A DNA stretch of 64,000 nucleotides, taken from Okeania sp. SIO2B3 (lineage in GTDB: Bacteria; Cyanobacteriota; Cyanobacteriia; Cyanobacteriales; Microcoleaceae). The DNA lies in NCBI RefSeq assembly GCF_010672525.1, contig NZ_JAAHGH010000002.1, positions 438,754 through 502,753 on the forward strand, in the 5' to 3' direction. The notes under the pieces were generated by a model. It worked only from the letters and a program-made list of their open reading frames with translations. It made no database searches and was not told the DNA's origin. A program made the translations under genes and the position numbers. Position 1 is the stretch's first letter. Each line of letters opens with the position of its first letter. This document shows, piece after piece, positions 155 through 36,192 of this stretch.

Positions 155-326
155 AATTAATTTGTTTTTCATTATTAATTATTAATTATTCATTATTCAT
201 TATTCATTAAGGCAGGGATGTACCCATGAAAAGGGACGTTTAGGAGAGGAGCCGTGATGAGGTGAAAGTCTCACGTCCGGTTCTGAAGACGAGTCAGGTA
301 GGGTAACTTACCTGGCTTAGTTTAAC
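1..326 (+). mobile_element. 3' end of a group II intron (domains V and VI) interrupting dnaG
   Basis: Bases 249-284 fold as a group II intron domain V: the catalytic AGC triad is at 250-252 and the arms GAGCCG and CGGTTCT enclose a GAAA-like tip. Bases 288-326 form domain VI, with the stem CAGGTA/TACCTG and a purine-rich strand that could carry the branch A. The intron ends with the expected AY dinucleotide at 325-326. The next base continues the dnaG frame: one G from the upstream exon plus AA would restore the conserved DEKTPSF motif of the primase zinc-finger domain. The rest of the intron and the first exon lie outside the window. No maturase reading frame is seen here. Confidence 0.85.
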
Positions 327-31184: not shown

Positions 31185-33374
31185 ATGAGCTATTGCCTCA
31201 ACTTACATTGTCAACAACCTCAAAATCCCAACGATGTAGAATTTTGCCAAACTTGCGGTTCAAAATTGTTACTGCGAGGACATTATCAAGTAATTAAACC
31301 TATTGGCAATGGCAGCTTTGGCAGAACTTTTTTAGCATTGGATTTAGATAGATTTAATACACCTTGCGTAGTCAAACAATTTTTCCCACAAAATCACAAC
31401 TTAATCTCTACCGAGAAAGCATCAGAATTATTTAAAAGAGAAGCAGAGCAACTATTAAAATTGGGAGAAAATCCCCAAATTCCTACTTTATATGCTTACT
31501 TTGAAGAGCAGGGAAATTTTTATTTGGTAGAACAATTAATTACCGGACAAACTCTTCTACAAGAATTAGAAGAACAAGGTGTATTTAGCGAGAATAAAAT
31601 CTGGGAGATATTATTAGAATTATTACCATTATTAAAGTTTATTCATGAAGAAAAAGTAATTCATAGAGATATAAAACCAGAAAATATATTACGATTTAAG
31701 ACTTCAAAATCATCAGAAAAAGGGAAAAATAAATTAGTCTTAATAGATTTTGGTGTTGCCAAACTAAATAGTCAGGATTTTGCGAGTGAAATTGGTACTA
31801 TGGCTGGTACAGTAGGATATGCTCCAATAGAACAAATACGCGGGGGTAAAGCATATCCAGCCAGCGATCTCTACAGTTTAGGTATGACTTGTATTCACTT
31901 GCTAACTAAAGTGGCACCTAACCAACTATTTGACCCATTTAGTGGAGAATTAATCTGGCGATCGCATCTAGTTCAACAAGGCAGAAAAATTAGTTATCAT
32001 CTAGAAAAAGTATTAGATAAATTAGTCAAAGACCTAGTAAAAGAAAGATATCAATCAGCTACAGAGTTACTAACAGAAATTTCTCATATATCAATTCCAA
32101 ATATTCAACAAAAAAATCAGGTTAATCGAGCAGAAAAAAAATCTTTAGGAGAAATACAAACCACTCAAGAAGTGCCGGAGAATGTACCTCATATCAGTAT
32201 CATTGTACAAGCAGAAGTAGAAGCATGGAAAAATAAACAAAATTTAGCAGAATTAACTGAATATAAGCGTGAAAAAATATTTCATAATGATACCGAAAGC
32301 CACTATCAAAGCACTCAAACATTATCAGAAAATCGACATATTAACTATCAATCAAAACCACTAAATAATGTCATAGAATTTGAAAAGAAAAAAGCAAATT
32401 TATCTTCAACAAAAACAAAAATTAGAAACTATTTAAAACTCTCTCAGTTATGGAAAAGTGTACAAATTATCCAAGAGCATAACGCTTCTGTAAACACCGT
32501 AGCTATCGGTCCCCACGGTTTTACTTTAGTCACTGGCAGCGATGACAAAATAATTAGACTATGGAATCTAAAAACAGGACAACTTTTACATAAATTTTTA
32601 GGTCACACTGCCGAAGTATATGCAATAGCTATTACTGCTGATGGCAGAAGAATTTTCAGTGGTGGAGATGATAGAACAATATTAGCTTGGAACTTACAGA
32701 AAAAAACAATTGCAGACAGATTTTATAGCTATTCAGGTTCCCCTTATAGTCATCGGGGTGGTGCTATTTTGTCAGTAGCTATTAGTCCAGATAATGAAAC
32801 TGTAATAAGTGGTAGTGCTGACCATACAATTAAACTTTGGAATCAACGTAATGGAGAATTACTTTGCAAATTACATGAACATTTAGATCAAGTTTTCTGT
32901 GTAACTTATGCCAAAGTTAATAATACTGGTACGGCAAAAAATCATCCTCAAAATCACATTTTTGCTAGTAGTAGTGCTGACAGTTCCATCAAAATTTGGC
33001 AAACAGGTACTTGTGTAAGTCTGAAAACTTTGAGGGGACATTCTGGAGGAGTATATTCAGTTGCTTTTACTTCAGATGCTCAAGCGATCGCTAGTGGTGG
33101 TGCAGATCAAACTATCAGACTCTGGGATGTTCGCACAGGTGAGCTACTGAATATATTCAAAGGTCATTCTCGTGCAGTTTTGTCTGTTGCTATTAGTCCC
33201 GATAGTCAAATTCTTGCTAGTGGAAGTCTAGATGGTACAGTTAAATTGTGGAATTTGCACACTGGAAAATTATTAGATAGTCTTTGTGGTTACTATCCAG
33301 TGCAATTTACTCCAGACGGTAACACTCTAGTTAGTGGTGGTGAAGGAGGTCGAATTTTGATTTGGAAGTTGTAG
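31185..33374 (+). CDS. Ser/Thr protein kinase with C-terminal WD40 propeller
   Basis: The 729-residue protein has three parts. The N-terminal four-cysteine ribbon (CLNLHCQQP...FCQTCGSKLL) is followed by a Hanks-type kinase domain at about 33-300 with GNGSFGRTF, VVKQF (Lys), HRDIKPENIL, DFGVAK and an APE-like APIEQIRGG. A variable linker comes next, then seven WD40 blades from about 435 to the end (for example DDKIIRLWNLKTG, ADQTIRLWDVRTG). No membrane helix is seen, so it is probably soluble, unlike the related kinase at 43981. It probably phosphorylates partners captured by the propeller. Family-1 element sequence lies immediately upstream, so its promoter may be within or beyond the element. 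Confidence 0.92.
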   Translation: MSYCLNLHCQQPQNPNDVEFCQTCGSKLLLRGHYQVIKPIGNGSFGRTFLALDLDRFNTPCVVKQFFPQNHNLISTEKASELFKREAEQLLKLGENPQIPTLYAYFEEQGNFYLVEQLITGQTLLQELEEQGVFSENKIWEILLELLPLLKFIHEEKVIHRDIKPENILRFKTSKSSEKGKNKLVLIDFGVAKLNSQDFASEIGTMAGTVGYAPIEQIRGGKAYPASDLYSLGMTCIHLLTKVAPNQLFDPFSGELIWRSHLVQQGRKISYHLEKVLDKLVKDLVKERYQSATELLTEISHISIPNIQQKNQVNRAEKKSLGEIQTTQEVPENVPHISIIVQAEVEAWKNKQNLAELTEYKREKIFHNDTESHYQSTQTLSENRHINYQSKPLNNVIEFEKKKANLSSTKTKIRNYLKLSQLWKSVQIIQEHNASVNTVAIGPHGFTLVTGSDDKIIRLWNLKTGQLLHKFLGHTAEVYAIAITADGRRIFSGGDDRTILAWNLQKKTIADRFYSYSGSPYSHRGGAILSVAISPDNETVISGSADHTIKLWNQRNGELLCKLHEHLDQVFCVTYAKVNNTGTAKNHPQNHIFASSSADSSIKIWQTGTCVSLKTLRGHSGGVYSVAFTSDAQAIASGGADQTIRLWDVRTGELLNIFKGHSRAVLSVAISPDSQILASGSLDGTVKLWNLHTGKLLDSLCGYYPVQFTPDGNTLVSGGEGGRILIWKL

Positions 33375-33832
33375 TAATATCATGTCCGGATGAAGACTTA
33401 TAAATAAACGACGGAGGAGGACCGAGTCAGGAGGACTGAGTCAGGAGTCAGAAGGAGAGAGAATCACTTTGATGAGCGTAGTTACAGCGGTTTTCATTTA
33501 GGTAGACCACAGTAGGGACGTTTCATGGAACGTCTCTACAAAGTTTTGCTTGTGAAGATGTGGTTCATCAATTTGAAAAGCACTGTATGACGATTGGAGA
33601 ATTTTTTTATGTCTAATTCCCCATACCACTTGCTCTTTTTCCAATGATAAATTTATGAATATTAGGTCTACTGATATATTTTGTAATATATTTAAAACTT
33701 TTTCTCTACTATTAGAAGGTTAGAACAGATCAAAAGTTTAAAACTAAAACAACGTAATATTTTTCCTTCTTGCTTCTTCCTTATTCCTTCTTGCTTCTTC
33801 CTTCTGCTATATTTCATACAAAACAGAAAAAT
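33375..33832. other. Intergenic region between the kinase and the RNA candidate
   Basis: TAATATCATGTCCGGA just after the kinase stop is a solo family-4 end. After it come GGAGTCAGGAGGA tracts, the palindromic block and CTTCTTCCTTATT tracts. No gene is seen. Confidence 0.5.
33485..33590. repeat. Palindromic repeat block, copy 3 (reversed)
   Basis: TACAGCGGTTTTCATTTAGG, then GTAGACCACAGTAGGGACG and CATGGAACG, is the reverse complement of the block at 46085-46220. The palindrome itself is at 33512-33539, with two mismatches. Confidence 0.75.
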
Positions 33833-34087
33833 AAAAAAACCTCTTGCCAGTTTTTGGGATAATTATATCCCTGTATATTTCAACAGCATAAATTTTCCTT
33901 CCCCACCTAATCAAGGTAAAATTCTGGCTGAAGAATCAAGCAAGAGGTTAAACTTTTAGATGCTCCTGATGTACTAACTCCCTAGATATTTCCTACGCTC
34001 CGACTAAGGAGTGGATTGTAGGAAAGCTAAACTCACTTACAAAGGTGTTTAATTCTCTTTGTAAAAGTTCAGAGTGTGTCTGTACTC
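33833..34087 (-). ncRNA. Candidate structured small RNA with its own promoter and terminator
   Basis: On the minus strand there is a -35 TTGCAT (34119-34114), a 16-bp spacer and a -10 TATTAT (34097-34092). The following roughly 255 nt contain these nested pairings: AGAGT/ACTCT just after the start; AACTTTT with AAAAGTT (about 34073 and 33955) enclosing the hairpins TTACAAAG/CTTTGTAA and TTTCCTAC/GTAGGAAA; then AACCTCTTGC (33949-33940) with GCAAGAGG(TT) (33847-33838), followed directly by a run of seven T. The last helix and T-run make a terminator. There is no reading frame. I do not recognise it as 6S, tmRNA, SRP RNA or RNase P RNA. Confidence 0.6.
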
Positions 34088-34091
34088 TTCC

Positions 34092-34119
34092 ATAATAAAA
34101 CTTTTTTCCTCAAATGCAA
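34092..34119 (-). promoter_or_regulatory. Sigma70-type promoter of the candidate sRNA
   Basis: TTGCAT and TATTAT separated by 16 bp on the minus strand, with the first stem of the RNA starting within 10 nt. Confidence 0.55.
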
Positions 34120-34236
34120 CTGGGTTATTACAATAGCCCTATTTTATTCATCGTGAAGAGAACCATAAGTAGGTAATGTTTAATATCAAAGTTAAACCAA
34201 CAGTAAAATTACTATATACAACTGAAAAAACTACTC

Positions 34237-35649
34237 TTAATTTAGTATTTTTAACCATAAAACTACTGTAGTGCCACTATTAATTATGACATCTTGCTGT
34301 TGTAAATCATGAGATAGCCACTGAGGAACTACAGGAGAATATACTTGAATTTGGCCTTTCATTGCATGTATTAAATCCAGAGCTATAGCTAATCCTAATC
34401 CTGTTCCTGGAATTTCCGTTTTAGCTTTTTCACCCCGATAGTTTCGTTCAAATAAATGTTCTAAATCTTGTGCTGGAATACCATAACCTGTATCGCTAAT
34501 AGCTATTCCTAGCATTCCTTCTCTTTCATTTTTTACCGATCGATCATCATCTGTTTGTGGAGCTGAAGTTGTCAACTTAATATAAATATTTCCCCCTGCT
34601 GGAGTATACTTCAAAGCATTATCAATAATATTACTTAAAACTTCTCGCAAAGCTTTATTATTAGCTTTTACTATAGGTAAATTATCAGAAAAATCAACTT
34701 CTAAATCTATATGACGTTCATCGGCAATTGCTTTTGCAGAAACTAATAAAGGTTCCAAAACATCTTGTACTGAAACTGATTCTAAGAAATTAGACTCTGG
34801 CAAAAGTGGTAATGATTTGAATTCTTTATTAGCTTCCGTATAATAATCTATTACATTTTCATTTTCAGTTGTAGTTTGAGGATACTCGCTTTCCCCAGAA
34901 ATACTCAAAATTTCTTCCCCAACCTCAACAGTTTCATCAATTTGTTCTATTAACTCTCTGAGGCGATCGCCTTCCCGTAAAATACTATTAGCAATATTCC
35001 AGCTTTTATCTTCTGGCAACAATCTTTTCAGCAATAACTTACCAAAAGTTCGTAGTGCAGTTAATGGACTTTTCAACTGATGCAATATGTCGTGTATTAT
35101 ATCATACTGCTGGGCTTGTAGCTTTTGCTGTTGCTGAAATTGTTCCTTTAACCATTGAGAACGTTGATCTAATATACAGGCTATGGCAATAGTATGGGCT
35201 ACTTGTTGAATTTGAGTTTTTTCACGTTGATTCCATGGCCTACCTTCTCTTACTGTTACCAGTAATCCTATTACTACTCCATCATGGATTAAAGGTAAAA
35301 CAATTTGACGTTGTTGCCAAGGATGACTTTCTGGCCATTTAGGGTCTGACTCTGTTGTGCCAGTGCTTGCTTCTAAGAGCCAAGTATTTGTCCCTGTAGT
35401 TAAGCTTGTTGCTGATAGTTTCGGAAGATCGCCTAATATTTGTATTTCTGAGGTTGTTTTGAAAATTGAAGTGGCTTCCCCATTCTCAAACTTTTCTGGG
35501 TATGCAATAATGGGAATTAGTTTAGCTTCACCTCCTTCTACTAATTTTTCTGTCAAGTAAACTATACTTAAACATGCACCCCAACTAGATACAAGGGCTA
35601 TTTGCGATCTACAAAGTCTAATCAATTCTGTACTGATTGGCATTAGCAT
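34237..35649 (-). CDS. Sensor histidine kinase with N-terminal GAF-like domain, Hik2/CSK type
   Basis: The 470-residue soluble kinase has a GAF-like sensor at about 8-160 (SIVYLTEKLVEGGEAKLIPI; VLPLIHDGVVIGLLVTVREG). The HisKA dimerisation domain carries the phospho-acceptor in DILHQLKSPLTALRTFGKLL. The HATPase domain has N-box NIIDNALKYTPAGG, G1 DTGYGIP and G2 GTGLGLAIALDLI. The lack of membrane spans and the sensor sequence resemble cyanobacterial Hik2 and the chloroplast sensor kinase, which report on plastoquinone redox or salt; this assignment is tentative. No response regulator gene is adjacent. ATG at 35649 or 35643 could start. Confidence 0.85.
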   Translation of the reverse strand: MLMPISTELIRLCRSQIALVSSWGACLSIVYLTEKLVEGGEAKLIPIIAYPEKFENGEATSIFKTTSEIQILGDLPKLSATSLTTGTNTWLLEASTGTTESDPKWPESHPWQQRQIVLPLIHDGVVIGLLVTVREGRPWNQREKTQIQQVAHTIAIACILDQRSQWLKEQFQQQQKLQAQQYDIIHDILHQLKSPLTALRTFGKLLLKRLLPEDKSWNIANSILREGDRLRELIEQIDETVEVGEEILSISGESEYPQTTTENENVIDYYTEANKEFKSLPLLPESNFLESVSVQDVLEPLLVSAKAIADERHIDLEVDFSDNLPIVKANNKALREVLSNIIDNALKYTPAGGNIYIKLTTSAPQTDDDRSVKNEREGMLGIAISDTGYGIPAQDLEHLFERNYRGEKAKTEIPGTGLGLAIALDLIHAMKGQIQVYSPVVPQWLSHDLQQQDVIINSGTTVVLWLKILN

Positions 35650-35853: not shown

Positions 35854-36192
35854 TTGGCTAGAAGACGTAAGCGCAAAAGTCGTCGTAGACAAGAAGGACG
35901 CAGGATTCTTGAGCAAGTGGCTCAGTATAGCATTGAAAGTGGCGAAGATAAACCAGTCACTGCAGCCCGTAAATTTATTCATGCACAAGGTATTGTTCCC
36001 CCTGCTGTACTTTTAGTTAGAAGGAATGAGCATACTACTGATCGATACTTTTGGGCTGAAAAAGGTTTATTTGGAGCTCAGTACGTTGAAGAAAATCACT
36101 TCTTGTTCCCTAGTTTAAAGGTTTTGACTGAAGCTAAGACACCTGACAAAAAGCAAATATTTAGTTCTACTCCAAATATAATTAAAGTCTAA
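35854..36192 (+). CDS. DUF3155 protein with TTG start
   Basis: The 112-residue cyanobacterial protein has a very basic N-terminus (ARRRKRKSRRRQEGRRILEQV) and the DUF3155 core (KFIHAQGIVPPAVLLVRRNEHTTDRYFWAEKGLFG). The basic end suggests nucleic-acid or ribosome binding, but the function is unknown. The start is a TTG placed 5 bp after a strong AGGAGGTAAGG ribosome site at 35840-35849; no ATG gives the family N-terminus. A strong terminator-like hairpin follows at 36381. Confidence 0.88.
   Translation: MARRRKRKSRRRQEGRRILEQVAQYSIESGEDKPVTAARKFIHAQGIVPPAVLLVRRNEHTTDRYFWAEKGLFGAQYVEENHFLFPSLKVLTEAKTPDKKQIFSSTPNIIKV

Follow-up and report, generated by a model that had tools for sequence, protein, structure and literature searches.

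A candidate trans-acting small RNA gene with a predicted two-domain fold in Okeania and two sister genera of cyanobacteria

An intergenic region of Okeania sp. SIO2B3 probably contains a free-standing gene for a trans-acting small RNA (sRNA), as judged from comparative analysis of a 64,000-nucleotide stretch of the genome (hereafter, the window). The RNA gene is located between a histidine-kinase gene and a convergent kinase-WD40 gene (31185-33374), and BLAST revealed a single copy in this genome of about 10 Mb. A previous sequence-only reading had proposed a candidate undescribed small RNA here, which is now supported by bounded conservation, a consensus fold and the absence of a conserved open reading frame (ORF): no ORF of at least 10 codons common to all homologues was found in the RNA gene, which is apparently non-coding. 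The features of the locus are as follows (positions are those of the window).

33833-34086, minus strand: RNA gene of about 254 nt, with its predicted start at A34086 and its end in the T7 run (based on a fold z-score of -4.45, an RNAalifold z-score of -6.1 with 0/200, and the limits of conservation)
34122-34139, minus strand: dyad GGGCTATTGTAATAACCC, 18 bp, directly upstream of the promoter
34092-34119, minus strand: predicted promoter, TTGCAT (34119-34114), 16-bp spacer, TATTAT (34097-34092)
34078-34085, minus strand: 5' strand of helix P1, GUACAGAC, pairing with 33978-33971
34029-34070, minus strand: hairpin H2, with one double change (C-G to U-A)
33991-34023, minus strand: hairpin H3, UCCUAC/GUAGGA plus an apical stem
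33957-33996, minus strand: near-invariant core GUAGGAAAUAUCUAGGGAGUUAGUACAUCAGGAGCAUCUA, made up of the H3 3' strand, the junction, the P1 3' strand and an unpaired linker
33971-33978, minus strand: 3' strand of P1, GUUAGUAC, partner of 34085-34078
33940-33949, minus strand: 5' strand of the terminator helix P4, AACCUCUUGC, pairing with 33847-33838
33879-33935, minus strand: H5, with a UUCUUCAGC...GCUGUUGAA arm, an inner hairpin and an invariant GGUGGGGAAGG segment
33856-33871, minus strand: hairpin H6, GGGAUAUAAUUAUCCC, the worst-kept helix in the sister genera
33833-33847, minus strand: 3' strand of P4, GCAAGAGGUU (33847-33838), and T7 (33839-33833)
34237-35649, minus strand: upstream histidine-kinase gene (GAF-HisKA-HATPase; Pfam and synteny), in the same orientation as the RNA
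33630-33677, minus strand: degraded remnant of a response-regulator-PAS-GGDEF gene (ISVDLIFINLSLEKEQ compared with ISVDLILINLSLEKEQ in L040; Pfam of intact copies)

The minimum free energy (MFE) of the window RNA was -71.4 kcal/mol (z-score -4.45), and none of 200 shuffled sequences was equally stable. The predicted fold is composed of two domains: one closed by P1 and containing H2 and H3, and a terminator domain containing P4, H5 and H6. One architecture, that is, a 7-bp long-range helix around two hairpins, the core, and a 10-bp terminator helix around further hairpins, could be identified in all 11 homologous sequences, and both P1 and P4 were present in each of the 11 separate single-sequence folds. 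All 7 bp of P1 (GUAC.GAC with GUU.GUAC) were kept in the 11 sequences, with one change from G-U to A-U. In the MFE fold, H2 contained 14 pairs in two stacks, H3 had 6 bp and an apical stem, and H6 had 5-6 bp. One homologue (L049) has lost the distal loop of H2 and retained its stem, and the apical stem of H3, when read as UCC/GGA, showed a double change from U-A to C-G in four sequences. The pairs of P4 were also kept in all 11 sequences and followed by the T run, as in an intrinsic terminator, with a long insert inside the helix; the first two T of the run double as the last two pairs of P4. In the core, 39 of the 40 positions were identical across the 11 sequences, and a single-base insertion was observed in L048. 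We propose that this core is a seed or a protein-binding site.

The final alignment of 11 sequences included the window, four Okeania sequences and six sequences from two sister genera (g7 and g8). On the full-length alignment, RNAalifold independently yielded P1, H2, H3, the 10-bp P4 and H5, with an energy of -44.8 compared with -20.2 ± 4.0 for alignments whose columns were shuffled within gap and conservation classes (z-score -6.1; 0/200), and with -37.0 for the reverse strand. The z-scores of single-sequence folds ranged from -1.8 to -5.0 across the homologues. Under the hand-set structure, 98.4% of the cells were paired, as against 37-48% when the partners were slid by 1-3 columns. Taken together, these data are good evidence that an RNA fold is conserved. 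Support from compensatory change appeared to be modest: two double-change pairs were found on the MAFFT columns, a number matched in 89 of 500 shuffles; the percentage of paired cells was equalled by 25 of 500. As most helix positions show no variation at all, the covariation test is a weak one. On the other hand, 9 of the 15 one-sided helix changes kept the pair, compared with 4.0 expected from the substitution spectrum of the unpaired columns (P = 0.0014; the changes were tallied by type, not on a tree). Compensatory changes, for which the sequence-only reading had suggested looking in relatives, were seen in part: a few were double, many were single changes that preserved the pair, and the majority of helix positions did not vary.

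With regard to its distribution, BLAST identified the RNA in four other Okeania genomes (95-98% identity), five g7 genomes and one g8 genome (75-82%), and the 11 sequences were 78-99% identical to each other. Conservation set in abruptly at the dyad and promoter and ceased at the terminator, its limits being 34143 and 33824. When compared with the six sequences of the sister genera, the upstream flank mostly agreed at 0.2-0.5, apart from one 20-bp bin at 0.65; agreement leapt to 0.93 at 34143-34124, where the dyad lies, stayed at about 0.6-1.0 across the RNA (100% at 33983-33964), and was 0.2-0.4 below 33824. A covariance model of the 11 sequences, searched against 388 genomes of the order, gave matches confined to the three genera and, among 386 genomes of the phylum, matched only the genome of origin and one g7 genome; both searches used stricter filters, with which distant relatives could be missed. 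A weak match in G207 (35 bits) was rejected, as it was only an unrelated inverted-repeat hairpin. On the basis of these searches, the RNA family is, as far as the sequences indicate, restricted to Okeania and the two sister genera. In G016 only a 66-bp remnant of the RNA is left (BLAST), and in G034 the RNA was not detected; therefore, it is dispensable.

The predicted start, A34086, lies 6 nt downstream of TATTAT, and the promoter was kept in the homologues. A generic consensus promoter scan of the region reported five promoter-like sites, compared with 3.5 expected by chance, and the TTGCAT-16-TATTAT pair was not among them. It is conservation, rather than the scan score, that makes the promoter credible. 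The dyad was nearly invariant across the 11 genomes, and the promoter region and dyad were conserved together with the RNA in all of them, as would be expected of a stand-alone sRNA gene. The dyad is a possible activator or repressor site. A search for its GGGNTATTNNAATANCCC sequence in the 10-Mb genome found no second occurrence, and a dyad unique in the genome means that such a search does not pin down its regulator. All elements named by the sequence-only reading were recovered: the -35/-10 pair on the minus strand (TTGCAT-16-TATTAT), the three local hairpins (H2, H3 and H6, all in the MFE fold), the 7-bp long-range pairing (P1, 34085-34078 with 33978-33971) and the perfect 10-bp closing helix running into seven T (P4, AACCUCUUGC/GCAAGAGGUU, and T7). 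Its list lacked the dyad, the near-invariant core and the conservation.

The relationship between the RNA and its neighbouring genes bears on whether it acts in cis or in trans. An unlikely reading, although the strongest of the alternatives, is that the RNA is a leader acting in cis on the response-regulator-PAS-GGDEF gene, in the manner of a riboswitch or attenuator; the P1 domain would sense a signal and CAGGAG/CUCUUG would form an antiterminator. The response-regulator-PAS-GGDEF frame is open in three genomes (L040, L041 and L044), where it starts 58-69 nt after P4, and in L042 (G002) a GGDEF gene at the same close spacing is broken by a stop. In addition, when RNAalifold was run on a truncated alignment, the invariant CAGGAG formed six invariant pairs with CUCUUG of P4, a possible alternative state of the modelled fold. 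However, the linkage to a downstream gene expected of a leader was not constant: the gene is close in these four genomes and degraded, distant or absent in most others. It is degraded in the window, a similar GGDEF gene lies about 700 bp from the RNA in L045, and four RNA-bearing genomes lack the gene at this locus (L046-L049, in G010, G025, G028 and G031), where a convergent phycobilisome-linker gene follows and the RNAs are 89-93% identical to each other. The sequence of L043 stops short of the downstream gene and was left out of this count; among the 10 assessable genomes, six retained the RNA without an intact downstream GGDEF gene, and the RNA, promoter and dyad all remain where that gene is degraded, broken or absent. 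Conversely, G016 has kept the GGDEF gene and lost most of the RNA. Thus, the RNA and the GGDEF gene come apart both ways, which argues against a dedicated leader. Moreover, P4 encloses about 90 nt, and an insert of this size inside a terminator helix is unusual for attenuators; no Rfam riboswitch was matched at the locus either. The RNA may still have a leader role in genomes with the close GGDEF arrangement. Independence from neighbouring genes, as expected of a stand-alone sRNA, is seen in the six genomes in which the downstream gene is degraded, broken or lost, and the overall pattern speaks more for a stand-alone trans-acting sRNA than for a leader.

Several other observations were made around the locus. 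A tandem tract at 33763-33818 (TTCCTTC, 21-bp unit) separates the RNA from the degraded GGDEF remnant, and its GAAGGAAGAAGCAAGAAGGAATAAG-like motif was found in about 40 other places in the genome. A DUF3155 gene (35854-36192; 112 amino acids), divergent from the kinase gene, was strikingly conserved in all relatives seen.

In every genome that has the RNA, the histidine-kinase gene was the closest conserved gene on the upstream side, and the RNA lies downstream of it in the same orientation. It is quite improbable, though, that the RNA is a 3' untranslated or processed part of the kinase mRNA without its own promoter: the gap between the two measured about 150 nt at its shortest and nearly 3 kb at its longest, with transposase- or mobile-element-like genes (assigned by eye) inside it in G010 and G025, and the dyad and promoter were conserved despite this variable gap, the promoter region being intact in these two genomes as well. 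A short leader-peptide or dual-function mRNA has very little probability; GGGGAAGG does occur a few nucleotides upstream of an AUG in Okeania, but neither the start nor the frame was kept in the sister genera, and the homologues share no 10-codon ORF. A CsrA-type sponge, suggested by several GGA motifs (AGGGAG, CAGGAGC and GGGGAAGG are invariant in the alignment), can practically be dismissed and was rejected, since no CsrA (PF02599) was found in the host genome by a search that matched three control genomes, although a GGA-binding protein other than CsrA may be involved.

We also compared the RNA with known families. Rfam 15 at gathering score gave no match at the window locus or at seven homologous loci, and a permissive Rfam scan returned nothing meaningful at the RNA locus. 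The Rfam scan proposed by the sequence-only reading agreed with its view of a candidate undescribed RNA that matches no recognised standard housekeeping RNA. 6S RNA (RF00013), which is of a similar size class and is also closed by a helix, is a separate gene: its sole match was at C112:342073-342258, with none at the RNA locus, and this identity was rejected. Elsewhere in the window (246-326, plus strand), the Rfam scan matched a group II intron domain V.

Yfr1, PsrR1, NsiR4 and IsaR1 are intergenic cyanobacterial sRNAs with their own promoter and an intrinsic terminator. The Okeania RNA resembles this type in being a stand-alone gene with its own promoter region, a conserved unpaired core and a terminator helix, whereas it is much longer (about 255 nt in two folded domains), clade-restricted and without an Rfam match. 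With riboswitch and attenuator leaders it shares a multi-branch domain that is closed by a helix and precedes an intrinsic terminator, with a GGDEF gene 58-69 nt further on in some genomes, and differs from them in being kept without an intact copy of that gene in six of the 10 assessable genomes, in the large insert in its terminator helix and in matching no Rfam family. No literature joining Okeania with non-coding RNA was found in open papers, a scope that does not extend to the Trichodesmium primary-transcriptome study. We rate the RNA as a new clade-restricted sRNA family of an ordinary kind, 'new' being relative to Rfam and open papers.

A further likeness concerns the ends of cyanobacterial mobile elements, TAGACCTCTTGC..AATTCTT, which the 5' strand of P4 resembles (ACCTCTTGC..(A/G)ATTCTT with GCAAGAGGT opposite). 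The Okeania RNA differs from such elements in being single copy in the clade, in having no transposase and in its remaining sequence. Inverted-repeat elements with these ends occur in other cyanobacteria (L062, L064 and L076-L079), and the end pattern marks such elements in G086, G085 and G207. In the genome of origin, a search for the pattern CCTCTTGCNNAATTCT found no mobile-element-like end, and a wider pattern found only the RNA itself. Derivation of the 3' domain from a mobile-element end is speculation. It forms part of a broader scenario that we consider a long shot, in which a lineage-specific two-domain RNA would have arisen in the Okeania clade beside the histidine kinase, possibly with a mobile-element-derived terminator domain, and would be switchable via CAGGAG/P4, so that a two-component or c-di-GMP signal is linked with targets in trans.

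For the preferred reading, a stand-alone trans-acting sRNA, the following mode of action is proposed. Transcription would start near A34086, controlled by a regulator bound to the GGG-TATT-GT-AATA-CCC dyad, and the transcript would end at P4-T7. The RNA would then act in trans, and its invariant unpaired linker AUCAGGAGCAUCUAAA would most likely base-pair with one or a few mRNAs; the junction GAAAUAUCUAGGGA might be a pairing site in addition to the linker or instead of it, or a protein might be bound at the linker or junction. The folded 5' and 3' domains would display the seed and shield the ends. A search for complements of the linker, with wobble pairs allowed, yielded about 30-80 matches per genome, approximately twice the reversed control, and no convincing conserved target was singled out among the genomes; in a genome of such size, chance alone would be expected to produce a 15/16 match. 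A recurring match inside a membrane-transporter-like coding sequence was explained by protein conservation. In six sequences (L080, L081, L087, L111, L116 and L127), a conserved ACTAATCAAGAGCATCTAA(A/C) stretch lies upstream of a glycosyl-hydrolase-like gene; the ATCA(A/G)GAGCATCTAA that it has in common with the linker of the RNA runs in the same sense, and for that reason the stretch was rejected as a target. This upstream stretch is duplicated in tandem in G034, a genome without detectable RNA.

Our results add an uncatalogued RNA family for mat- and bloom-forming marine cyanobacteria. Its sharp conservation and almost invariant core make the gene suited to deletion or to use as a pull-down bait, and the dyad provides a handle on the regulator of the RNA.
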